Assembly (NCBI GenBank): GCA_027022065.1 | Contig: JALVZS010000076.1 | Coordinates: 1 to 11,070 of the forward strand | Length of the DNA: 11,070 nt | DNA from: a bacterium | GTDB lineage: Bacteria > Thermosulfidibacterota > Thermosulfidibacteria > Thermosulfidibacterales > Thermosulfidibacteraceae | Reading direction: 5' to 3' | Shown here: piece by piece, positions 145 to 11,070 of the stretch | Numbering within the stretch: position 1 is the stretch's first letter | Layout of the letters: each line of letters starts with the position of its first letter | Translations under genes and position numbers: made by a program | The notes under the pieces: generated by a model | The model's database searches: none | What the model saw: the letters and a program-made list of their open reading frames with translations, nothing else | What the model was told of the DNA's origin: nothing

Positions 145-168
145 TTGTGGTTCATTACAGATGGGAGG
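133..168 (+). promoter_or_regulatory. Possible hairpin masking the glutamate dehydrogenase ribosome-binding site
   Basis: The Shine-Dalgarno GGAGGTG (164-170) lies 5 nt before the ATG at 176. The end of rnpB carries its complement: CCT (133-135) and CCCAT (138-142), separated by a 2-nt bulge, can pair with ATGGGAGG (161-168) around an 18-nt loop. If rnpB and the dehydrogenase mRNA are one transcript, this pairing would compete with the P1 helix of RNase P RNA, and cutting at the mature rnpB 3' end would free the site. The complementarity is seen in the sequence; the regulatory role is inference. Confidence 0.3.
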
Positions 169-175
169 TGTTGTT

Positions 176-3100
176 ATGCCTTTGAAGGAGCTTTTCCATG
201 AAGCCTTTTTGGCTCAGGTCCCCAAGTCCTATCTTGCTTCTGCGGATAAGGCCTCTTTTGAGGAGAATGTGAATGAGCTTTGGGAGTTTATCAGGGAGAG
301 GAAAGAGGAGGTTAAAATACGCTGCGTTAAGAAAGATAGGGGCTTTTTCATACATGTGAATATGGATGATCAGCCCTTCATAGTTGACACTATTGAGCTT
401 GTTCTTAAAAGGAAGGCTCTTCCCGTTCGCTCCATTGTGCATCCCGTTATAGAAGTTAGAAGGGATGCCTCGGGGAAGGTGGAGGCTGTAGGCGAGGGAA
501 AGAGAGAGGTGGTAATCCTTGTGGAGATAGGGTCCGAGGCGAAGGAGGAAAAGGTAAAAGAGGCGGTTGAGAGACTTTCTCTCATCCTTCCCATGATTCA
601 CGCCATGGTTGAGGACTTTGTTCTTATGAAGAAGACCATGAGGGATGCCATTAATGACATAGAGTTCCTCTGCGAGCTGGGCAGGCTAAATGCGGATGAG
701 GCTGAGGAGTATAAAGACTTTCTGGAGTGGCTGATTCACGACGCCTATGTCTTCTTTGCCTATGGAGAGCTTAAGGACGGTAATAAGCTAACAAACACCA
801 TGGGTGTCTTAAGGGAAAAATACAGGGAGGACTACCACTACATAGTCAATTTGGATGAGGTGTTTGAGGCACTAAAGGGAGAGGGGGATTTCCTTATAAT
901 AGGTAAGCTCTCCAGTGAGTCTTGGATACACAGGCCCGGCAGATTGGATCTCATAGCCGTTCCCTTGGTTAATGAGGCTGGTGATAGGGTAGGGTGGCGT
1001 GTGTGGCTGGGTCTTTGGACCAAAAAGGCGGTAAGCTCTAAGGGAAGCAGCATTCCCATTTTGAGGAAGAAGCTTGAGGCTCTGCTTGCCAAGAAGAATG
1101 TAACCTTTGGAAGCCACACATACAAAAGAATCGTTGCCATATTTGACTCTATCCCCATAGAGGAGCTCTTTGTTTCCAGCGTGGAGGACCTGGAGGAGAT
1201 AATAGATCTCATCTTCGGCATGGGATTTGAGCCTAGGATAGAGGTTTTGATGAAGAAGAGGCCCAAGGGCATAACCTCTGTTTTGGTTATAATGCCCGAA
1301 AGCCGCTTCTCTATGAACGCCGCAGAGAGGATCAAAACCTACCTTATGGAGAGGTTTGGTTCTGACTATGCGGATATGCGCTTTTCTATATACGAGGGAT
1401 CCATGGCCCTTATATACTTCTTCCTAACCCCTGCGGAGGATGTGGATGTTTCTGAGACAGAGTTAAAAGAGAAGGTAAGGGAGATAACCGCAGAGTGGGA
1501 GGATATATTTAGGGAAGAGCTGAAGAGGGCCTGTCCTGAAGAGTGGGAAGACCTCTACTTTAAGTATGCTGCGGCATTCCCCACCGACTACAAGGCCTCT
1601 GTTTCTCCCAAGAGGGCGGTGAGGGATGTTGCGATATTACAGACGCTCTCAGAGAAGGATCCTTTTAAGGTGGTTGTGGAGGACGAGGAGCAGTTTAGCA
1701 TCATAAAGATATACAGCCTTTTTGAGTGGAAGCTTTCCGATGCGGTCCCTGTTCTTGAAAACTTTTATCTGACCATCTGGGACGAAAAGCCCTTCAAACT
1801 CAGTCTGCCTGCGGGGGAGGTCTTTATCCACTGCTACAGGGTGCTTACCAAGGATAATGTAAAGATTCCAGAGGAGGACAGAGAGAGGCTTTCTGAGGCT
1901 GTATCGGCAGTTATAGAGAAGAAGGTTGAGTCTGATCCTCTGAACAGCCTTGTTCTCAAGGCAGGCTTTGACTGGAAGGCTGTGGATGTTCTCAGAACCT
2001 ACAGAAACTACATAAGGCAGATAAGACCGTCAATTGCATTCTCCACGGCTTACTCTTCCTTTAGAACGTATCCTCACATCACGAGGCTTCTTTGGGAGTA
2101 CTTTGATACAAAATTCAATCCAGACCTTGGGCTCTCTCTAGAGGAGAGGCAGGAGAGGCTGAAGGAGATAGAGGAGAGGTTTTACTCCTCTCTTTCGGAG
2201 GTGAGTAGCCTTGCCGAGGATAAGGTTTTCAGGGCCTACTTTAACGCCATAGAGAGCACCATAAGGACCAACTTCTACAGAACTGATAAAGTGTCCCACT
2301 ACATATCCATCAAGATAGACTGCTCCAGGATAATTGAAATGCCCCTTCCCAGGCCCATGTACGAGGTCTATGTGCACGAGTATGGGATGGAGGGTGTGCA
2401 TCTAAGAGGCGGAAAGGTTGCAAGGGGGGGAATCCGCTGGAGCGATAGGCCCGATGACTTTAGAACAGAGATACTGGGCCTTATGAAGACCCAGATTGTT
2501 AAGAACTCCATAATCGTGCCCACAGGTGCCAAGGGCGGCTTTATCATAAAGATGCGTTACTACCATGTGGAGGACAGAAAGCAACTTGAGGAGCTTGTTA
2601 GGGAGAAGTACACCTTCCTCATAAGGGGAATGCTGGATGTTACTGACAACATAGTTGACGGCAGGGTGGTGAGGCCTCCCAGGGTCATATGCTACGACGA
2701 TGAGGATCCTTACCTTGTTGTTGCGGCGGACAAGGGAACGGCAAGGCTTTCCGATGTGGCCAACTCCATAGCCAGGGAGTATGGATTCTGGCTGGACGAT
2801 GCCTTTGCCTCTGGAGGCTCCACTGGCTATGACCACAAGAAAATGGGGGTTACCGCAAAGGGTGCATGGGTTTGTGTAAAGCGCCACTTCATGGAGATGG
2901 GCATAAATCCCGAGAGGGATGTTATCACCGTCGTTGGTATAGGAGATATGTCGGGAGATGTGTTTGGTAACGGTATGCTGCTTTCAAGAAGCATAAAGCT
3001 TGTGGCGGCCTTTAACCACAGGGTAATATTCATTGATCCAGACCCTGATCCTGAGGTTTCCTATCAGGAAAGGCTTAGGCTTTTTAGGGAGGCCAAAGAC

Positions 3101-4813
3101 TGGGATCACTACAATCCCAAGCTCATAAGCAAGGGTGGAGGCGTTTACAGAAGGGACGCTAAAAGCATCAAGCTTTCTACTGAGGCAAGGAAGGTTCTGG
3201 GAACTGACAAAGAGGAGGTTTCTGGAGAGGAGCTTATAAAGATAATCTTAAGGGCTCCTGTGGATCTTCTCTGGAACGGTGGAATAGGAACCTATGTGAA
3301 GGCCTCTTATGAGACCAACGCAGAGGTGGGGGATCCTCCCAACGACAATGTGAGGGTAAACGCCAACGAGCTGAGAGTAAAGGTGGTGGGTGAGGGAGGA
3401 AACCTCGGATTCACCCAGAAGGCAAGGGTGGAGTACGCCTTAAACGGTGGAAAGATCCACATGGATGCCTTGGACAACTCTGGAGGTGTGGACACCTCGG
3501 ACCACGAGGTCAACCTGAAAATCCTGCTGTCTTTGCCCATGAAGGAGGGCAAGCTCTCCTTTGAGGAGAGAAACAACCTCATATTTGACATAGCGGATGA
3601 GGTGCTCGCCAGCGTGCTTCGCAACAACTACACCCAAAGCCTTTCCGTTAGCCTTGATACCATCAGAAGCAGGAAAGACATAACCCCCTTCGTATATACC
3701 ATTGAGACGCTTATCAGAGACGGCTTCATTGACACAAGAGAGGTCTTTTTGCCCTCTGTGGATGAGCTTATGCAGAGGTTTGACAGAGGCATTGGACTGC
3801 TTAAGCCGGAGCTGGCACTGCTCATTGGCCTTCAGAAGAGGTGGCTCAAGGAGAAGCTCAGGGGTTCTTCACTTCTCAAGGCGGAGTACCTTCAGGAGTT
3901 TCTCTACGAATACTTCCCTGACACGGTTAGGGAGCGCTTTGGTGAGTACATCAACAGGCATCCGTTAAGGGATGAGATAGTGCTCACCTGTGTGGTTAAC
4001 TCTATCGTGGATAATGCGGGTATCTCCTTCTACCACAAGGTTTACAAGGATCACGGGGCGGAGCCTGAGGAAACCACGGCATCCTACATCATGATGGAGG
4101 GGGTGCTAAACGCCAAAGCTCTTAGAAAAAGGATCTTTGAGCTTGACTTCAAGGTACCAGCTGAGGCTCAGTACAAGGCGCTTCTTGATATAGAAGATGC
4201 CATAGAGCAGTTGGTCAAGTGGAGCCACTTCTTTATTGGCGATTGGCTGCCTCTCACCCCTGTGGTTCAGAAGTACAGGGAGCAGATAGGAAAGCTTAAA
4301 ACTGTTATTCCTGCTGTTCTTTCTGCCAAGGAGAAGGAGGAGCTTGTATCCAGGATAAGCTACTTCAAGGACGCTGGATTCCCCGAGGATCTTGCCAGAG
4401 ACGTAGCCATTGTCCCGTTCCTCTCAAATGCCATGGATATTATCACCCTTGCGGAGACTTTGGAGATGGATCCTGTGCTTCTTGCTGGTGTCTACTACAC
4501 CATATCCAACAGGTTCATGCTCATGGAAGTGGAGGATGCCATAGTTACAGGTGATAAAAAGACCGAGTGGGATCATCTTGCCTACAGTATGCTTCACAGG
4601 GAGCTTTACCATGTGAGGAGGCGTCTGGTTCAGAAGTTTGTGGGATTCATGAGGAGCAGAGGTGAGGATAAGGATGTGGATCTTTTCATGAACAGGGAGG
4701 TGAAAAACTGGCAAATGGTTGTGGAGCTTATAAGGAACGCTCTTTCGGAAAAGACCAGAGACGTTGCTGCTTGGTATGTCATTATTAACAGGATGAAGGA
4801 GGTTGTGGTCTGA
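176..4813 (+). CDS. gdhB: NAD-specific glutamate dehydrogenase, large (180-kDa) class
   Basis: This enzyme oxidatively deaminates L-glutamate to 2-oxoglutarate and ammonia with NAD+, in the cytoplasm. The protein is 1545 aa; family members are usually about 1600-1650, and the shortfall lies ahead of the N-terminal ACT-like region. That region has DDQPFIVDT (64-72), FLEWL near 182 and HRPGRLD near 252, all family landmarks. The catalytic domain has HLRGGKVARGGIRWSDR (742-758), VKNS (775-778) and PTGAKGG (782-788). By comparison with hexameric GDHs, K776 and K786 are the substrate and catalytic lysines. The NAD-binding Rossmann loop is GIGDMSGDVFGNG (921-933). A long helical C-terminal domain follows. 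I chose ATG 176 because GGAGGTG sits 5 nt upstream; ATG 161 would place the Shine-Dalgarno inside the gene. The stop overlaps the proposed start of the next gene. No frameshift or missing catalytic residue is seen. Confidence 0.96.
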   Translation: MPLKELFHEAFLAQVPKSYLASADKASFEENVNELWEFIRERKEEVKIRCVKKDRGFFIHVNMDDQPFIVDTIELVLKRKALPVRSIVHPVIEVRRDASGKVEAVGEGKREVVILVEIGSEAKEEKVKEAVERLSLILPMIHAMVEDFVLMKKTMRDAINDIEFLCELGRLNADEAEEYKDFLEWLIHDAYVFFAYGELKDGNKLTNTMGVLREKYREDYHYIVNLDEVFEALKGEGDFLIIGKLSSESWIHRPGRLDLIAVPLVNEAGDRVGWRVWLGLWTKKAVSSKGSSIPILRKKLEALLAKKNVTFGSHTYKRIVAIFDSIPIEELFVSSVEDLEEIIDLIFGMGFEPRIEVLMKKRPKGITSVLVIMPESRFSMNAAERIKTYLMERFGSDYADMRFSIYEGSMALIYFFLTPAEDVDVSETELKEKVREITAEWEDIFREELKRACPEEWEDLYFKYAAAFPTDYKASVSPKRAVRDVAILQTLSEKDPFKVVVEDEEQFSIIKIYSLFEWKLSDAVPVLENFYLTIWDEKPFKLSLPAGEVFIHCYRVLTKDNVKIPEEDRERLSEAVSAVIEKKVESDPLNSLVLKAGFDWKAVDVLRTYRNYIRQIRPSIAFSTAYSSFRTYPHITRLLWEYFDTKFNPDLGLSLEERQERLKEIEERFYSSLSEVSSLAEDKVFRAYFNAIESTIRTNFYRTDKVSHYISIKIDCSRIIEMPLPRPMYEVYVHEYGMEGVHLRGGKVARGGIRWSDRPDDFRTEILGLMKTQIVKNSIIVPTGAKGGFIIKMRYYHVEDRKQLEELVREKYTFLIRGMLDVTDNIVDGRVVRPPRVICYDDEDPYLVVAADKGTARLSDVANSIAREYGFWLDDAFASGGSTGYDHKKMGVTAKGAWVCVKRHFMEMGINPERDVITVVGIGDMSGDVFGNGMLLSRSIKLVAAFNHRVIFIDPDPDPEVSYQERLRLFREAKDWDHYNPKLISKGGGVYRRDAKSIKLSTEARKVLGTDKEEVSGEELIKIILRAPVDLLWNGGIGTYVKASYETNAEVGDPPNDNVRVNANELRVKVVGEGGNLGFTQKARVEYALNGGKIHMDALDNSGGVDTSDHEVNLKILLSLPMKEGKLSFEERNNLIFDIADEVLASVLRNNYTQSLSVSLDTIRSRKDITPFVYTIETLIRDGFIDTREVFLPSVDELMQRFDRGIGLLKPELALLIGLQKRWLKEKLRGSSLLKAEYLQEFLYEYFPDTVRERFGEYINRHPLRDEIVLTCVVNSIVDNAGISFYHKVYKDHGAEPEETTASYIMMEGVLNAKALRKRIFELDFKVPAEAQYKALLDIEDAIEQLVKWSHFFIGDWLPLTPVVQKYREQIGKLKTVIPAVLSAKEKEELVSRISYFKDAGFPEDLARDVAIVPFLSNAMDIITLAETLEMDPVLLAGVYYTISNRFMLMEVEDAIVTGDKKTEWDHLAYSMLHRELYHVRRRLVQKFVGFMRSRGEDKDVDLFMNREVKNWQMVVELIRNALSEKTRDVAAWYVIINRMKEVVV
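4796..4812 (+). promoter_or_regulatory. Shine-Dalgarno and candidate CTG start codon of the methyltransferase
   Basis: AAGGAGGT (4796-4803) is a near-perfect Shine-Dalgarno inside the last codons of the dehydrogenase gene. Six nt later comes CTG (4810-4812), which shares CTGA with the dehydrogenase stop, mirroring the common ATGA coupling junction. The reading frame is closed upstream by TAA at 4786. Between that stop and GTG 4921 it contains no ATG, GTG or TTG. The peptide starting at CTG begins [16 protein letters not shown], which resembles the opening of THUMP methyltransferases. This supports initiation at CTG, unless the C is a sequence error for A. Confidence 0.6.
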
Positions 4814-5970
4814 AGGCCCTCTTCTCAACGGAAAGGGGTATAGAGGGCTTTCTTGCGGATTCCATAGATGGGGTTGGGAGGGTTACTCCCAGCCCCTTTT
4901 CTTTTCCTGGAAGGGTTCTTGTGGAGGACGTGTCAGAAAGAGAGTTTTTAAAGATTCTCTACGCCAATCCCGTTTACCACAGGTGCCTTTTGCTCCTTGA
5001 GCTTTCCCGTATTCCAAAGGGTAGGGAGGCGTTGGATGCCATATACTATGTGGTCAGGGACAGTTGCGTGATTGATGTTATTTTGAGGAAGGGAACCTTT
5101 GGGGTTAAAAGCACCCGCAGGGGCAACCATCCCTTTACCTCTCAGGAGGTTGCATCCTACGCGGGTGCAGCAGTTATTGATGGATGCAGGCTTAGAAGAG
5201 GTTTCAGACCGTTAGTAGATTTGGATGATCCTCAGGTGCAGGTGGTTGCTGATGTGTGCGGCCAGTTTTTCTTTTTGGGAATTGAGCTTGTTGGAGAAAG
5301 GTGTATGCACAGGAGGGGTTGGAGGGTTTACGAGCATCCGGCTTCTTTAAAGTCCACAATAGCCAATGCCCTTTTGATGCTTGCTGGGTTTGGAAGTGGG
5401 GAATCCCTTTGGGATCCCATGTGCGGAGGAGGCACCATTCCCATTGAGGCTGCCCACAGGTGCATGGGTTTGCCTCCTGCTTATTTTAGAAAGCGTGATT
5501 TCGCCTTCTTAAGGGCTGGTCTGTTCAGCGAGAGGCTCTGGGAGGAGGTAACCTGTGGGGTTGATGCCGAAATAAGGTGGGATGCCAACTTTAGGATTTT
5601 TGCTTCCGATGCTTCTTTTCGCCACCTTGAGGGTGCCCTTAGAAATGCGGAAAATGCTTTGATTAAGGATAAAATACTGTTTGAGGTGGCAACCGTTTCC
5701 TGTTTTTCCAAGAAGGATGAGGTGGATGTTGTGGTTACTAATCCACCCTATGGGATAAGGATGGGTGGGCCGAAGAAGGCGAGAAAAGCCCTTGAAGAGC
5801 TTATGCAGACTTTTCTTGTTTCCAGTGCGAGGGTGCTTGTTGTCATTCATCCGTTTCCGGATATGGTCAAGGAAATCGCTCAGAAGCTAGGTATTAAGCT
5901 TGACAAAGAGGTTCGCTCCTATAATGGTAATCTTGAGGTTTCCCTGCTTAGATTTGGGAAAGGAGGTTGA
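4810..5970 (+). CDS. THUMP-domain class I SAM-dependent RNA guanine-N2 methyltransferase (RlmL/YpsC/TrmN-type)
   Basis: This enzyme transfers a methyl group from SAM to a guanine in rRNA or tRNA. Family members make m2G2445 in 23S rRNA (RlmL) or m2G6 in tRNA (TrmN/Trm14); the substrate here cannot be read from the sequence. From CTG 4810 the protein is 386 aa, close to single-domain members such as YpsC. The first 60 residues (STERGIE, then a GRVLVED strand) fit the region leading into the THUMP fold, which continues to about residue 160. HRRGW near 170 and the SAM-binding motif [14 protein letters not shown] (202-215) follow. The catalytic NPPY (311-314) is typical of N2-guanine enzymes. The alternative GTG at 4921, with GGAAGG at 4909-4914, gives 349 aa but loses the N-terminal region. 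A terminator-like hairpin lies within codons 21-32. The stop is 2 nt before yebC. The family is secure; the start is less so. Confidence 0.88.
4870..4907 (+). terminator. Intrinsic-terminator-like hairpin inside the methyltransferase 5' coding region
   Basis: GGGGTTGGGAG (4870-4880) pairs with CTCCCAGCCCC (4886-4896) as an 11-bp stem with 8 G-C pairs and one G-U wobble. The loop is GGTTA, and TTTTCTTTTCC follows directly. The stem starts 57 nt after the dehydrogenase stop, so it could serve as that gene's terminator. It is also inside the methyltransferase frame if that gene starts at 4810, where ribosomes would disrupt it. The opposite strand has no U tract, so it would act in the + direction only. 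The structure is seen directly; termination or attenuation activity is inferred. Confidence 0.65.
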
Positions 5971-5972
5971 AG

Positions 5973-6713
5973 GTGGCAGGCCATTCAAAGTGGGCAAATA
6001 TAAAGCACAAAAAGGCCCGTGAGGATGCCAAGAGGGGAAAGATATTTACAAAGATTGCAAGGGAGATAATCGTTGCTGCCCGGCTGGGAGGGGGTGATCC
6101 TGACAGTAATCCCAGATTAAGGAGGGCTATACAGAAGGCAAAAAGCTACAATATGCCCAAGGAAAACATAGAGAGGGCCATAAAGAGGGGCACAGGAGAG
6201 CTTGAAGGGACAAGCTTTGAGGAGGTGATTTACGAAGGCTACGGTCCTGGTGGTGTCGCTATCCTTATAGAGGCCATAACGGATAATAGAAACAGAACGG
6301 TTTCTGAAATAAGAACCATATTTACCAAGCACGGCGGCAGCTTGGGAGAGGCGGGATGCGTTGCCTGGATGTTTGATAAAAAGGGTATGATCACCGTTGA
6401 AGGGGTGGACGAGGACAAGCTTATGGAGATTGCAATAGAGGCAGGAGCGGAGGATGTAAGGGAAGATGAAGGGGTTTTTCAGGTGATAACCGCTCCCGAT
6501 GAGCTTGAGGATGTAAAGGAGCAGATTGAGCAAAGGGGAATTACCGTTAAGGAGGCGACACTCACCTATCTTCCCCAGAGTACCGTTAGAGTTGAGGGAG
6601 AAAAGGCGGAAAAGCTGATAAAACTGCTTGATGCCCTTGAGAACCACGATGATGTGCAGAATGTCTATGCCAACTTTGATGTGCCTGAGGAAGTGCTTTC
6701 AAGCATTTCGTAA
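5973..6713 (+). CDS. yebC: YebC/PmpR family protein
   Basis: YebC-family proteins have been described as DNA-binding transcriptional regulators, and more recently as ribosome-associated factors that relieve stalling, notably at proline runs. The molecular role here is not settled by sequence. The 246-aa protein has the family's normal length and its hallmark opening [14 protein letters not shown], followed by [17 protein letters not shown], the segment [14 protein letters not shown] around 83-96, and the later TDNRNRT motif. I chose GTG 5973 because it gives this canonical N-terminus and has AGGAGG (5961-5966) 6 nt upstream. A TTG at 5967 would add two residues and crowd the Shine-Dalgarno. 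The gene begins 2 nt after the methyltransferase stop, and its stop shares one base with the ruvC ATG (TAATG). The yebC-ruvC order is common in bacteria. Confidence 0.96.
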
Positions 6714-7168
6714 TGAGGATACTCGGCGTGGATCCTGGGTACAACCTTGGTTATGCAGTTGTTGAGGATGAGAGAAATCTTTTAACCTTTGGTGTCTTGA
6801 AAACTAAAGGGACTTCCTCTGAAAGGCTCAGCACAATCTACAACAAAATCTTCTCAATTATAGGCGATTTTTCCGTAAGTGTTCTTGCACTTGAGGAAGC
6901 ATTTCATGGAAGGAATTCCAAGTCCTTGATAAAGCTTGCCGAGGCAAGGGGCGCGGTTCTTGCCGCAGCTGGTTCAAGAGGTATTGTGGTGGTGGAGCTT
7001 CACCCCTCTGAGGTGAAGAGGGGAGTAACTGGGAGGGGGTCTGCCACGAAGGAGCAGGTGAGGTTTATGGTATCTCAGATTTTCGGAGTGAGAAATATAA
7101 GTCATCACGAGGCCGATGCTATATCTATAGCTTTTTGTGCCTTTTCCAGGAGGGAGGGATATGGATGA
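6713..7168 (+). CDS. ruvC: Crossover junction endodeoxyribonuclease RuvC
   Basis: RuvC cuts Holliday junctions symmetrically and resolves recombination intermediates with the RuvAB branch-migration motor. The 151-aa protein has an RNase H-like fold. Visible family motifs are GVDPG with D7, the LEEAF segment with E61, KLAEARG (74-80), and HHEADAISIA near the C-terminus. D7, E61, H132 and D135 fit the four metal-binding catalytic positions, with His in the third place as in Thermus rather than the Asp of E. coli. The protein is somewhat shorter than E. coli RuvC (173 aa), mainly at the C-terminus. The start overlaps the yebC stop by one base and has no convincing Shine-Dalgarno at normal spacing, so translation is probably coupled to yebC. 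ruvA and ruvB are not in the window. Confidence 0.95.
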   Translation: MRILGVDPGYNLGYAVVEDERNLLTFGVLKTKGTSSERLSTIYNKIFSIIGDFSVSVLALEEAFHGRNSKSLIKLAEARGAVLAAAGSRGIVVVELHPSEVKRGVTGRGSATKEQVRFMVSQIFGVRNISHHEADAISIAFCAFSRREGYG

Positions 7169-8333
7169 GAAGAACATATACGATATAGACTACACAACCT
7201 GGAAACCCCTTTCCCAGATATTCAATGATGAGCATCCCTTTTTCAAATCTACTCTTTTTGTTCCAGGCTACGACATTTCATCAAATATATACGCCGTGAA
7301 CTACGGTGAAGGATGGGCTTTCATTGATCCTGGAAACGACTATACCGCCTTTATTCAGTTCTTCAGGGAATACGCAAGCCCCCTTGATATTAAGAAGATC
7401 TTCATAACCCATGGCCATCCGGAGCATGTTATGGGAGTTATGGAGCTTTTGAGGTACCCAAGCGTCTACAGAGAGCGTGGTTTTACCGTGTACATGCAGG
7501 AAGATGGTCCTGAGGAGATGAAAAATGTGTTCAACAGTTTAAAGATAAAGGTGGAGTATGTTTACCACAACGATGAGATAGATCTTGGGCCCTTTAAGCT
7601 TAAGGTTATACACACCCCTGGACACACTATTGACAGCGTTTGTTACTTCCACGAGGAGACGGGTTCCATTTTTACGGGGGATACCGTTTTACCTTACGCC
7701 TTTGCCAGTGCGGATCCTGTGGCAGGAGGTAGGGATGACTATCACCTTATGGCCCTTAAGATGCTGATGTCCTTCTCTCCCAAGCATCTCCTTCCGGGTC
7801 ATGGAATGCCCGTTAAGGGTAAGGCAATGGAGGTGATAAGGGGAAACTATGCTGCTGCAATAAAGAAAATGGTGGGGGAAGGGGTTCCGTGGATAGAGGC
7901 TGCCGCTTACCTTGCTCAAAAAGGGTATATGGAAGAGGCCTTATTCTGCTGCGATCTGGAGCTTAGAGAAGGGGACAACCCTTATGCCTTGCAGCTTAAA
8001 GCAAGCTGTTTAAACGATATCGGCAGATACGATGATGCGATAGAGATCTTTGACAAGATGCTGGAGAAGAATCCTAGAAATGTTTTTGCCCTTTTGGGAA
8101 AGGGCTACGCCCTCATGGGCAAGGGGAACTATGAGGAGGCGATAGGTTACTTTGACAAGCTCCTTGAGATGAATCCCAACTTTAAAGATGCGGCGGTTTA
8201 CAAGGGAATGGCACTTTTCCTTGCAGGAAGGGAAGAAGAGGCAATGAAGATAGAGGCTTTTAGAAACGAGTACAAAGAGAGATTTAAAGAGGCCCTTGAG
8301 GAGATCAAAAAAGAGAAGTCTGGAGGTGATTAG
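7161..8333 (+). CDS. Metallo-beta-lactamase-fold hydrolase with C-terminal TPR repeats
   Basis: The 390-aa protein is a probable cytoplasmic metal-dependent hydrolase with a protein-interaction tail. Its substrate is unknown. The MBL domain covers about residues 1-225. Metal-ligand motifs are HGHPEH (84-89), HTPGH (151-155), TGD with D174, and PGHG with H214. The first motif has Glu88 where the family consensus HxHxDH has Asp. A helical linker (about 225-272) leads to roughly three tetratricopeptide repeats (about 273-370), with landmarks such as GRYDDAIEIFDKMLEKNP and GNYEEAIGYFDKLLEMNP. There is no signal peptide or membrane segment. I chose ATG 7161 because AGGAGG (7148-7153) lies 7 nt upstream; GTG 7137 would precede that site. 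The gene overlaps ruvC by 8 nt and its stop abuts the next ATG. The fold is secure; any function linked to phosphate uptake or recombination would be speculation. Confidence 0.9.
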   Translation: MDEKNIYDIDYTTWKPLSQIFNDEHPFFKSTLFVPGYDISSNIYAVNYGEGWAFIDPGNDYTAFIQFFREYASPLDIKKIFITHGHPEHVMGVMELLRYPSVYRERGFTVYMQEDGPEEMKNVFNSLKIKVEYVYHNDEIDLGPFKLKVIHTPGHTIDSVCYFHEETGSIFTGDTVLPYAFASADPVAGGRDDYHLMALKMLMSFSPKHLLPGHGMPVKGKAMEVIRGNYAAAIKKMVGEGVPWIEAAAYLAQKGYMEEALFCCDLELREGDNPYALQLKASCLNDIGRYDDAIEIFDKMLEKNPRNVFALLGKGYALMGKGNYEEAIGYFDKLLEMNPNFKDAAVYKGMALFLAGREEEAMKIEAFRNEYKERFKEALEEIKKEKSGGD

Positions 8334-9002
8334 ATGGGTATATTTAACCTTTTCAGGAAGTCTCCCTTTGATCCTCTACAAGAGATGATGGACAAGGTGG
8401 TGGAGTGTGCTCACATGTTAAAGCCTCTCTTTGAAGCCTTTGCTGAGGGAGATTTGAAAAAGGTGAAAGAGATCTCTGATCACATTTCCCACCTAGAGTA
8501 CGAGGCGGATCAGATAAAGAACAGGATAAGAAGCTCTCTTCCGAAAAGCATTTTTATGCCTGTTTCCCGCATGGATATTCTTGAGATACTTGCGAATGAG
8601 GATGCCATAGCGGATGCCACTGAAGATGTGGCGGTCTTAATAAGCCTGAAAGAGCTGAAGGTGCTTCCTGAGTTCAAAAACTGCCTTTTGGAGTTTGTTG
8701 ATAGATGCATATCGGTTGTGGATGAGGCGCATAAGGTCATTAAAGAGCTAGACATACTTGTGGAAACCTCCTTTGAAGGACCGGAGGCTAGAAGGGTTAT
8801 AGCCATGATAGATGGGGTTTGTGATATGGAGCACCATGCCGATGAGTTTCAGAGAAAGGTGACACAGAACTTTCTTTTGCACGAGGACAGATTCACTCCT
8901 GGGGAGCTGTGGCTCTGGCTCAAGATAGTGGCCAAGGTGGGAGATGTGGCCAACTTTGCAGAGCGTATGTGCAATAGGGTAAGATTGTTCCTCTCCAAAT
9001 AA
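8334..9002 (+). CDS. PhoU-like DUF47 (TIGR00153-type) protein, PiT transporter partner
   Basis: DUF47 proteins are all-helical PhoU relatives that are usually encoded beside PiT transporters and are thought to modulate phosphate uptake or homeostasis. The 222-aa protein has the expected length and opening (MGIFNLFRKSPFDPL). It carries PhoU-like acidic helices that can bind metal clusters: EYEADQIKNRIR near 60-70, EDAIADATEDVAV near 92-105, EHHADEFQRKV near 165, and GDVANFAERM near the C-terminus. It is soluble and cytoplasmic, with no signal peptide. GGAGGT (8322-8327) lies 6 nt before ATG 8334, and the preceding stop abuts the start exactly. The PiT gene follows after 23 nt, which is the classic arrangement and strongly supports the assignment. 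Confidence 0.93.
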   Translation: MGIFNLFRKSPFDPLQEMMDKVVECAHMLKPLFEAFAEGDLKKVKEISDHISHLEYEADQIKNRIRSSLPKSIFMPVSRMDILEILANEDAIADATEDVAVLISLKELKVLPEFKNCLLEFVDRCISVVDEAHKVIKELDILVETSFEGPEARRVIAMIDGVCDMEHHADEFQRKVTQNFLLHEDRFTPGELWLWLKIVAKVGDVANFAERMCNRVRLFLSK

Positions 9003-9025
9003 AGAGCCTTTCAGGGAGTCTAGCC

Positions 9026-10264
9026 ATGCACCTGTATATAGTTTCTGGACTGGCTCTGCTTGCTGGCTTTTACATGGCTTGGAACATAGGGGCTAATGAT
9101 GTTGCCAATGCCATGGGTACATCGGTGGGCTCAAAGGCCGTTACTTTGAAAAAAGCCATCCTTATTGCGGCCATATTTGAGTTTACGGGGGCCTTCTTTG
9201 TGGGAAGCCATGTTACCAGCACCATAAGCAAGGGAATTGTGGATCCCATGCTCTTTAAATCCGTTCCTCAAGAGTTTGTTTTGGGCATGCTTGCCTCTCT
9301 CCTTGCGGCAAGTATATGGCTCCAAGTGGCTACCTATTTAGGTTGGCCCGTTTCAACTACCCATTCTATCGTGGGTGCGGTTGTGGGTTTTGGCATAGTG
9401 AGCAAGGGGCTGTCGGCTATAGAGTGGGGAAAGCTTATAACCATAGTGCTTTCCTGGATCGTTTCTCCTATCTGTGGTGCTGTGATTTCCTATCTTATGT
9501 TCAGGTGGGTTACCAAATACATTCTTGCCACAGAGTATCCCGCCGCTGCCACGAGAAAATACGCTCCCTTTTTGGTGGGTATGGTTGCATTTATTATAAC
9601 CCTTTCCGTTGTCTATAAAGGGCTTAAGCTTAAGCTTCCCCTGCCCGAGGCCATTATAGTGGCTTTTGCTGTGGCAGTGGTTGTGGGTCTTTTTGTGAAG
9701 TTTCTGGTTTTTGGTGTTCAGCGCTCTCCTAGGGGAGCTATGAGGGAGAGACTTCTGGAAACGGAGGAGCTTTTTAAGTATCTCCAGCTTGCAACTGCTT
9801 GTTTTATGGCCTTTGCACATGGTGCTAATGATGTGGCGAACGCTACGGGCCCCATGGCGGGTATATTTACCACCATTACAAAGGGCATAGTGGTTTCAAA
9901 GGCCTATGTTCCTGCATGGATACTGTTTCTCGGTGGCATGGGCATTGTGGTGGGCCTTGCCACCTGGGGCTACAGGGTTATAGAGACGGTGGGGAAGAGG
10001 ATAACGCACATCACTCCGAGTCGTGGGTTCTGTGCCGAGTTTGGATGTGCCACAACCGTGCTTGTCTGCTCAAAGCTGGGACTTCCCATATCCACTACAC
10101 ATACACTTGTTGGTTCGGTTATAGGTGTGGGAATGGCGAGGGGATTGGAGGCCCTTAACCTGAAAGTAATAAGGCAGATAGTAAACTCTTGGATCATAAC
10201 CATTCCCTTCACTGCTGGCCTTTGCGTTTTTATTTTAGCCATTCTCAAGGCCATTTTCCTATGA
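9026..10264 (+). CDS. pit: PiT-family inorganic phosphate transporter
   Basis: PiT proteins import inorganic phosphate, often as a metal-phosphate complex, coupled to H+ or Na+ across the inner membrane. The 412-aa protein is almost entirely hydrophobic segments, around ten or more membrane helices. It shows the family's internal duplication: GANDVANA at 22-29 and again at 266-273, and STTH at 110-113 and again at 356-359, each followed by a glycine-rich helix. A charged cytoplasmic loop (about 230-250, with RSPRGAMRERLLETEELF) separates the halves. ATG 9026 follows a modest GGGAG (9014-9018). The last codons overlap truD by 4 nt (ATGA). The low-affinity PiT system without pst genes nearby suggests constitutive uptake; no Pho box was recognised. 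Confidence 0.96.
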   Translation: MHLYIVSGLALLAGFYMAWNIGANDVANAMGTSVGSKAVTLKKAILIAAIFEFTGAFFVGSHVTSTISKGIVDPMLFKSVPQEFVLGMLASLLAASIWLQVATYLGWPVSTTHSIVGAVVGFGIVSKGLSAIEWGKLITIVLSWIVSPICGAVISYLMFRWVTKYILATEYPAAATRKYAPFLVGMVAFIITLSVVYKGLKLKLPLPEAIIVAFAVAVVVGLFVKFLVFGVQRSPRGAMRERLLETEELFKYLQLATACFMAFAHGANDVANATGPMAGIFTTITKGIVVSKAYVPAWILFLGGMGIVVGLATWGYRVIETVGKRITHITPSRGFCAEFGCATTVLVCSKLGLPISTTHTLVGSVIGVGMARGLEALNLKVIRQIVNSWIITIPFTAGLCVFILAILKAIFL

Positions 10265-11070
10265 AGATAAAGTGCAGACCTGAAGATTTTATCGTGGAGG
10301 AGGTCCTCAGGGTTCCCCTTAAGGATAGGGGGAGCTTTGAGGTGTACCTTTTAGAGAAAAGGGGGGCTAATACTTTAGACGTTCTTCAGGATGTAGCTCG
10401 CCGTTTGAAGATCCCTTTGAGAGAGATAGGCTACTGCGGCCTTAAGGATAGGCATTCCCTTTCCCGCCAGTATATCTGCTTTCCCGCTGGTAAAGGTGCT
10501 GAGCTGGTAGGTAAAAACTACAAGCTTGTATTTAGGGGATTTGTAGATGATGGGCTTTTACCTTTCCACCTTAAAGAGAACAGATTTTCTGTTGTTGCAA
10601 GGGATGTGGGGACTCCTCCTCATCTTGTGGAGGAAGAGTTGCAGGATGTTGAAGAACACGGATATCCCAACTACTACGATGTGCAGAGATTTGGTTCTGC
10701 TCGCCACGGAAAGGGTTTTGCAGCCTTAGAGGTTGTAAAGGGAAACTACAAAAAGGCCCTTAGACTTATACTTGCTGAGTATTCAAGTCATGATTCCAAG
10801 GAGGTCAAGGCCTTTAGAAGGTGTGTTTCTGAAAACTGGGGTAGCTGGGATAGGTGTCTGGAGCTTGCCCCAAGCTTGTGGGAAAACAGGATACTTAAGT
10901 TTTTGATGGGTAGAGAGCTTTCCAACTCCACGGCGAAAAAAGCTCTGGCCATGGTGGACGAAAAGATAAGGGAACTTTTCCTAAACGCACTCCAGTCTCA
11001 TCTTTGGAACCAGGTGGTGGTTAAGCTGTTGGAAAGGAATCTAGATCCCCAATACATTGTGAAGGTAAGG
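10261..11070 (+). CDS. truD: tRNA pseudouridine(13) synthase TruD, 5' part (runs off the window)
   Basis: TruD isomerises U13 to pseudouridine in the D-arm of certain tRNAs. The frame stays open for 270 codons to the window edge, so the C-terminus is missing; full proteins are usually 340-430 aa. Motifs are the N-terminal RPEDFIVEE (6-14), GYCGLKDRHSLSRQ (57-70) with D63 as the expected catalytic aspartate, NYYDVQRFGSARHGKGF around 137-153, and FLNALQSHLWNQ near 240. These are diagnostic for TruD rather than TruA, TruB or RluA families. The start ATG overlaps the PiT stop as ATGA. Only a weak AAGG (10247-10250) lies upstream, so initiation is probably coupled to PiT translation. TruD occurs in bacteria, archaea and eukaryotes, so it does not fix the taxon. 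Confidence 0.95.
   Translation, partial: MKIKCRPEDFIVEEVLRVPLKDRGSFEVYLLEKRGANTLDVLQDVARRLKIPLREIGYCGLKDRHSLSRQYICFPAGKGAELVGKNYKLVFRGFVDDGLLPFHLKENRFSVVARDVGTPPHLVEEELQDVEEHGYPNYYDVQRFGSARHGKGFAALEVVKGNYKKALRLILAEYSSHDSKEVKAFRRCVSENWGSWDRCLELAPSLWENRILKFLMGRELSNSTAKKALAMVDEKIRELFLNALQSHLWNQVVVKLLERNLDPQYIVKVR

Follow-up and report, generated by a model that had tools for sequence, protein, structure and literature searches.

A terminator that falls within a gene is commonly put down to prediction noise or taken for a signal that ribosomes have to suppress. Our literature search, conducted mostly outside subscription journals, found no description of a natural, conserved terminator set in the heads of operon-internal genes; the nearest reports concern engineered or incidental terminators in coding regions and mapped 3' ends internal to ORFs. 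The closest experiment is that of Li et al. (2015), who tested one terminator in many different positions in E. coli and found it repressed close behind a stop codon, fully efficient beyond ~27-30 nt past the stop, and only ~10% less efficient when placed 30 bp inside a translated second ORF (PMC4824070). The authors attributed the small effect of translation to the lead of RNA polymerase, which ribosomes rarely catch up with over the first ~100 bp. Here we analyze a stretch of 11,070 nucleotides of bacterial DNA (the window) in which a natural element appears to occupy a similar position. With a probability of roughly 0.7, we read it as a selected intrinsic terminator located inside the 5' coding sequence of the gene that follows a glutamate dehydrogenase, where it would step expression down at the junction.

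The window holds a long operon encoding, in order, the dehydrogenase, a methyltransferase, yebC, ruvC, a metallo-beta-lactamase/TPR protein, DUF47, a Pit-type transporter and truD. The relevant features are these:

161..4813, + strand: large NAD-dependent glutamate dehydrogenase, 1550 aa (Pfam Bac_GDH_CD, 9.4e-231, plus GDH domains)
4797..4803, + strand: Shine-Dalgarno sequence AAGGAGG, 6 nt before CTG 4810, with an anti-SD duplex of -12.4 kcal/mol
4810..4812, + strand: methyltransferase start codon CTG, which overlaps the TGA stop of the dehydrogenase (4811-4813)
4810..5970, + strand: THUMP / UPF0020 Trm14-like methyltransferase, 386 aa, host of the putative terminator (NF040721, 4.6e-70)
4815..4849, + strand: weaker stem-loop GGCCCTC...GAGGGCT right where the methyltransferase frame opens, upstream of the putative terminator
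4870..4896, + strand: putative terminator stem-loop GGGGTTGGGAG-GGTTA-CTCCCAGCCCC, spanning codons 21-29 of the methyltransferase frame
4897..4905, + strand: U-tract TTTTCTTTT, encoding Phe-Ser-Phe
5967..10264, + strand: yebC, ruvC, the metallo-beta-lactamase/TPR protein, DUF47 (PhoU_div) and the pit-type phosphate transporter, all beyond the putative terminator
after 10264 to the window end: truD, named from sequence only

The methyltransferase scored below the curated cut-off of the NF040721 model and is therefore labeled only 'Trm14-like'. It is best matched by an archaeal family model and, in the order members examined, is confined to the family of the window genome.

The arms of the stem (4870-4880 and 4886-4896) form 11 pairs, eight of them G-C, around a loop of 5 nt (4881-4885), and the stem begins exactly 60 nt into the frame counted from CTG 4810, precisely as a preliminary description of this DNA had placed it. 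That description put the stem 57 nt after the dehydrogenase stop; counted from the final base of the stop codon, the spacer is 56 nt. The element thus combines the attributes of an intrinsic terminator, a G-C-rich stem of at least five pairs with a short loop and a U-rich tract directly 3' of it, although the C at position 5 of TTTTCTTTT counts against our preferred reading. The stem energy is -23 kcal/mol. Folding of 4860-4910, which the description had proposed as a check, gave -24.5 kcal/mol (z -2.9), and the narrower segment 4866-4906 gave -24.2 kcal/mol (z -4.3). A generic scan of the window found 11 terminator-like sites against 12.9 expected in shuffled sequence; because this count does not exceed the shuffled expectation, the bare presence of such a site is unremarkable. 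When sites were scanned by hairpin energy and tail, the stem at 4870-4896 ranked first in the 11-kb window. An Rfam scan of the window returned no match to a curated cis-regulatory RNA family. The weaker stem at 4815-4849 was considered as a second terminator, which it resembled, and was set aside, its form not being conserved.

CTG starts are rare in bacteria, and standard gene callers can be expected to pick GTG 4921, the first conventional start codon of the frame. A start there, past the hairpin, would make the stem intergenic. We compared the locus with two congeners (G001 and G002) that belong to the same family as the window genome (G000) and to another genus; all three assemblies are incomplete. 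Both relatives have TTG aligned with CTG 4810, in keeping with the weak start noted before, and each of the three genomes has a two-base overlap of stop and start codons, CTGA in the window and TTGA in the relatives. Methyltransferase homology to the relatives extends from CTG 4810 onward, and the alignment to the Trm14 model NF040721 runs from residue 1 in the relatives and from residue 5 in the window protein. Between G001 and G002, codons 1-45 differ at 9, 9 and 26 sites at codon positions 1, 2 and 3, respectively. The position-3 excess and the relatives' Trm14 match from residue 1 rule out GTG 4921 as the true start. On these comparative grounds, the terminator segment is truly coding and the methyltransferase starts at CTG 4810; homology, codon-position bias and model match agree with the earlier view that the element lies within a real coding region.

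The window methyltransferase shares ~52% identity with its homologues in the relatives, and the order dehydrogenase-methyltransferase-yebC-ruvC is common to the three genomes. Past ruvC, the relatives (L031 and L032) carry ruvA, ruvB and a QueH-like gene, and the window, from 7137 to 11070, carries the metallo-beta-lactamase/TPR, DUF47, pit and truD genes; judged by gene content, the operon tail is rebuilt between genera. Among the genomes compared, only G001 and G002 also pair the methyltransferase with the dehydrogenase, the order-level relatives having the dehydrogenase without the methyltransferase, so that the pair is known from only three genomes, two of them congeners.

Both relatives retain a strong stem followed by a U-tract at the same codons, the tracts being TTTTCTCTT and TTTTTCTTTT; loss of stem and tract with the protein conserved, which the preliminary description had named as evidence against the idea, has not occurred in either. 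In the scan by energy and tail, the homologous site also takes first place in the loci of both relatives (15 and 19.5 kb), which were located by protein homology only. We then compared each element with synonymous recodings that kept the same residues and drew on each genome's own codon usage. Recoded stems matched the observed energy in 0/4000, 2.6% and 0.4% of cases in the three genomes, and stem and U-tract were matched together in 0/4000, 0.125% (0.00125) and 0.075% (0.00075). The values for the two relatives are free of selection bias, because homology was what located these loci.

The pattern of substitutions agrees. Three of the four wobble-to-wobble pairs of the stem have changed on both sides between G001 and G002 and still pair (G-C/A-U, A-U/G-C and C-G/U-A), the compensatory changes at synonymous sites that the preliminary description had proposed to look for; the fourth pair, G-U versus A-U, changed on one side and also still pairs. 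Stem pairs joining codon positions 1 and 2 are invariant between these two genomes. The window stem is offset by one base relative to theirs, and this shifted register suggests that function was kept rather than sequence. Sequence has drifted and structure has stayed, which matches the prediction of selection on the hairpin. By these comparisons, the stem at 4870-4896 is not a product of chance, and its structure is under selection.

A similar arrangement occurs elsewhere in the genome. We sampled 581 kb of it, calling genes outside the window ourselves with a simple in-frame hexamer model, and searched the first 180 nt of 394 operon-internal genes for compact strong terminators, defined as sense-strand elements of at most 44 nt with an energy no weaker than -17 kcal/mol, no less than 0.5 kcal/mol per nt and a strong U-tract. 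Six of the 394 gene heads carry one inside the coding start, where synonymous recoding predicts a mean of 0.10-0.25 and gave a maximum of 2 in 60 trials. None was found in 2,170 mid-gene segments, in 128 E. coli heads (seven stretches, 350 kb) or in 137 heads of an order-level relative, G004 (270 kb). In genes without a co-directional predecessor, 0/136 heads carry one; an equal rate would predict only about two, which makes this contrast weak. Of the compact strong terminators located up to 150 nt past a co-directional stop, 5/20 lie inside the next gene here as against 0/32 in the sampled E. coli DNA. The first members were already known when the compactness rule was set, and only the FlgO-like member comes from DNA obtained later. 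The sharp contrast depends on that rule, since looser thresholds give gene-head enrichment of only about threefold (13 versus 4.0) and, at dG -18, about 2.4-fold. Besides the window methyltransferase, the members are:

L051:2954-2995, + strand: stem-loop inside lpxK, 11 nt past the valS stop
L054, plus coordinates 5532-5561, - strand: stem with TTTTGTTTTTT inside psd, 66 nt into psd; the stop of ilvC, which precedes it, overlaps
L082, plus coordinates 7067-7092, - strand: within pth, a perfect stem of 10 bp with TTTTCTTT, 104 nt past the stop of the ribosomal L25 gene (rplY)
L094:10044-10076, + strand: terminator-like stem embedded in a VanZ-like gene, after an iron-sulfur protein gene
L165:1325-1364, + strand: terminator-like stem embedded in a FlgO-like lipoprotein gene

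The lpxK hairpin, which at 11 nt lies nearer the stop than the full-efficiency spacing of the E. coli test terminator, is retained in G001 (L150; joint p 0.00075) and is not significant in G002 (L149). The G002 homologues of psd and pth have no hairpin, nor does the VanZ homologue in G001, and the FlgO-like gene has no match in the relatives. Apart from the methyltransferase, then, the wider class is weakly conserved and patchy in these comparisons. Whether the members represent a lineage-wide layout, in which operon-internal intrinsic terminators within the first ~100 nt of the next CDS are selected at silent sites as a compact step-down between genes of unequal demand, we regard as an even bet.

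Our preferred reading implies the following course of events. RNA polymerase leaving the dehydrogenase gene would complete the stem and U-tract before a ribosome in the methyltransferase frame could cover them. A fraction of dehydrogenase transcripts would consequently end at ~4900-4906, and only read-through RNA would reach the methyltransferase, yebC, ruvC and the distal genes, stepping expression down at the operon junction with no need for intergenic DNA. The proposal that dehydrogenase transcription tapers into the downstream genes in this way is plausible. Termination in vivo at 4870-4896 would be largely independent of methyltransferase translation. The stem is clear both of a ribosome stopped at 4813 and of one initiating at 4810, and its distances of 56 nt from the stop and 60 nt from the start of the frame put it within the permissive zone of the E. 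coli construct. The weak start codon may also limit futile initiation, because a message ended at the terminator would leave a CTG-initiated ribosome without a stop codon. Rho is present in G001 and three order-level relatives and was not found in the incomplete assemblies G000 and G002.

The preliminary description had put translation from CTG 4810 at the center of a switch, in which ribosomes re-initiating at the overlapping CTG or TTG cover the stem and permit read-through, poor initiation permits termination, and methyltransferase translation thereby sets distal expression. The two-base stop/start overlap in 3/3 genomes, the non-ATG starts and the strong Shine-Dalgarno sequence in the window suit such an attenuator, as does the location of the terminator inside a translated frame; an immediately re-initiating ribosome, unlike a newly loaded one, would already be near RNA polymerase, and ribosome-mediated attenuation is itself established, as the account of B. 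subtilis bmrCD indicates (PMC4191407). The switch would nevertheless need a large effect of translation, and the E. coli construct, with its ~10%, argues against this as the main mechanism, as does the placement of the stem clear of ribosomes at 4813 and 4810. We see neither a leader peptide nor a run of regulatory codons, and no shared competing (antiterminator) fold: single-sequence folds from -60 to +110 keep the terminator stem in 3/3 genomes. Other members of the class, psd and pth, start with an ordinary ATG. Coding-strand purine content, moreover, is 0.557 here and 0.559 in the relatives, compared with 0.515 in E. coli, and strong purine bias accompanies runaway transcription in species of other phyla, where ribosomes would not protect the stem (PMC13323073). 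The bias, if tied to runaway transcription here, would lessen the terminator's dependence on ribosomes still more, which is only suggestive; ordinary terminator-to-stop distances in this genome do not separate clearly enough from those of E. coli to infer runaway transcription. On balance we consider a translation-set switch unlikely. The simpler reading offered alongside it, a dehydrogenase terminator that shares its sequence with a coding region, gives the best fit, and what it left out is that the element is apparently selected and recurs at other junctions.

Two further explanations were weighed. The hairpin might stabilize or process the 3' end of the dehydrogenase mRNA or brake early translation of the methyltransferase, since exonucleases can be blocked, or ribosomes slowed, by stable stems close to the end of a gene, and structure alone would fit either role. 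These roles leave unexplained the U-tract kept directly 3' of the stem in 3/3 genomes and the lack of a comparable excess in antisense or mid-gene segments, and the 0/136 among heads not preceded by a co-directional gene speaks weakly in the same direction; we judge them improbable. More improbable still is that the protein yields the stem as a by-product, through the complementarity of Gly-x-Gly and Pro-x-Pro codons and a T-run supplied by Phe-Ser-Phe, with no need of selection on RNA. The conserved Gly-Ala-Gly and Pro-Ala-Pro residues do fix those pairs that join codon positions 1 and 2, and Phe/Ser codons rich in T are common enough that, in the recoding, the tail alone gives p 0.05-0.17. 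Yet recoded stems average -9 to -12 kcal/mol whereas the real ones have -19 to -23 kcal/mol, the wobble bases covary, and the same pattern is found at other junctions, in unrelated proteins. These comparisons largely refute an origin in the protein sequence.

A terminator embedded in the methyltransferase gene therefore remains our preferred reading. Because the relatives keep the stop signal by matched silent changes and five other junctions share the arrangement, the cell apparently terminates messages within the gene that follows. Compensatory wobble changes and repetition at unrelated junctions suggest that codon choice and an RNA stop signal are co-selected in one stretch of DNA, a pattern that offers a sequence-only route to functional intragenic terminators. 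Such embedded terminators could also serve as natural test cases for the lead of RNA polymerase over ribosomes at gene starts in uncultured bacteria.

Set beside known systems, the window element shares with operon-end intrinsic (Rho-independent) terminators the G-C-rich stem, short loop and U-tract, and its strength is comparable to that of the best intergenic terminators of the same genome. Those terminators mostly lie within ~25 nt of the stop, however, whereas the window element is 56 nt past it and inside the next ORF. Ribosome-mediated attenuators (pyrBI, amino-acid leaders, bmrCD) likewise place a terminator near or inside translated sequence that heads downstream genes, but here neither a leader peptide nor a competing fold is seen, and the host frame is a full enzyme gene. 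Term-seq has mapped 3' ends within coding regions of E. coli (PMC7815308) and Borrelia (PMC10319736), some with intrinsic-terminator scores; most of those mapped ends lack a strong score, whereas the sites in the window genome are predicted from sequence, cluster at the heads of genes that follow a co-directional stop and bear signs of silent-site selection. The nearest parallel is the engineered tR2 in the first 100 bp of a CDS, which also lies tens of bases past a stop, inside the start of a second ORF, where it works nearly unaffected by translation (Li et al. 2015, PMC4824070). That terminator belongs to a constructed plasmid; the window element is natural, constrained by its codons and conserved.
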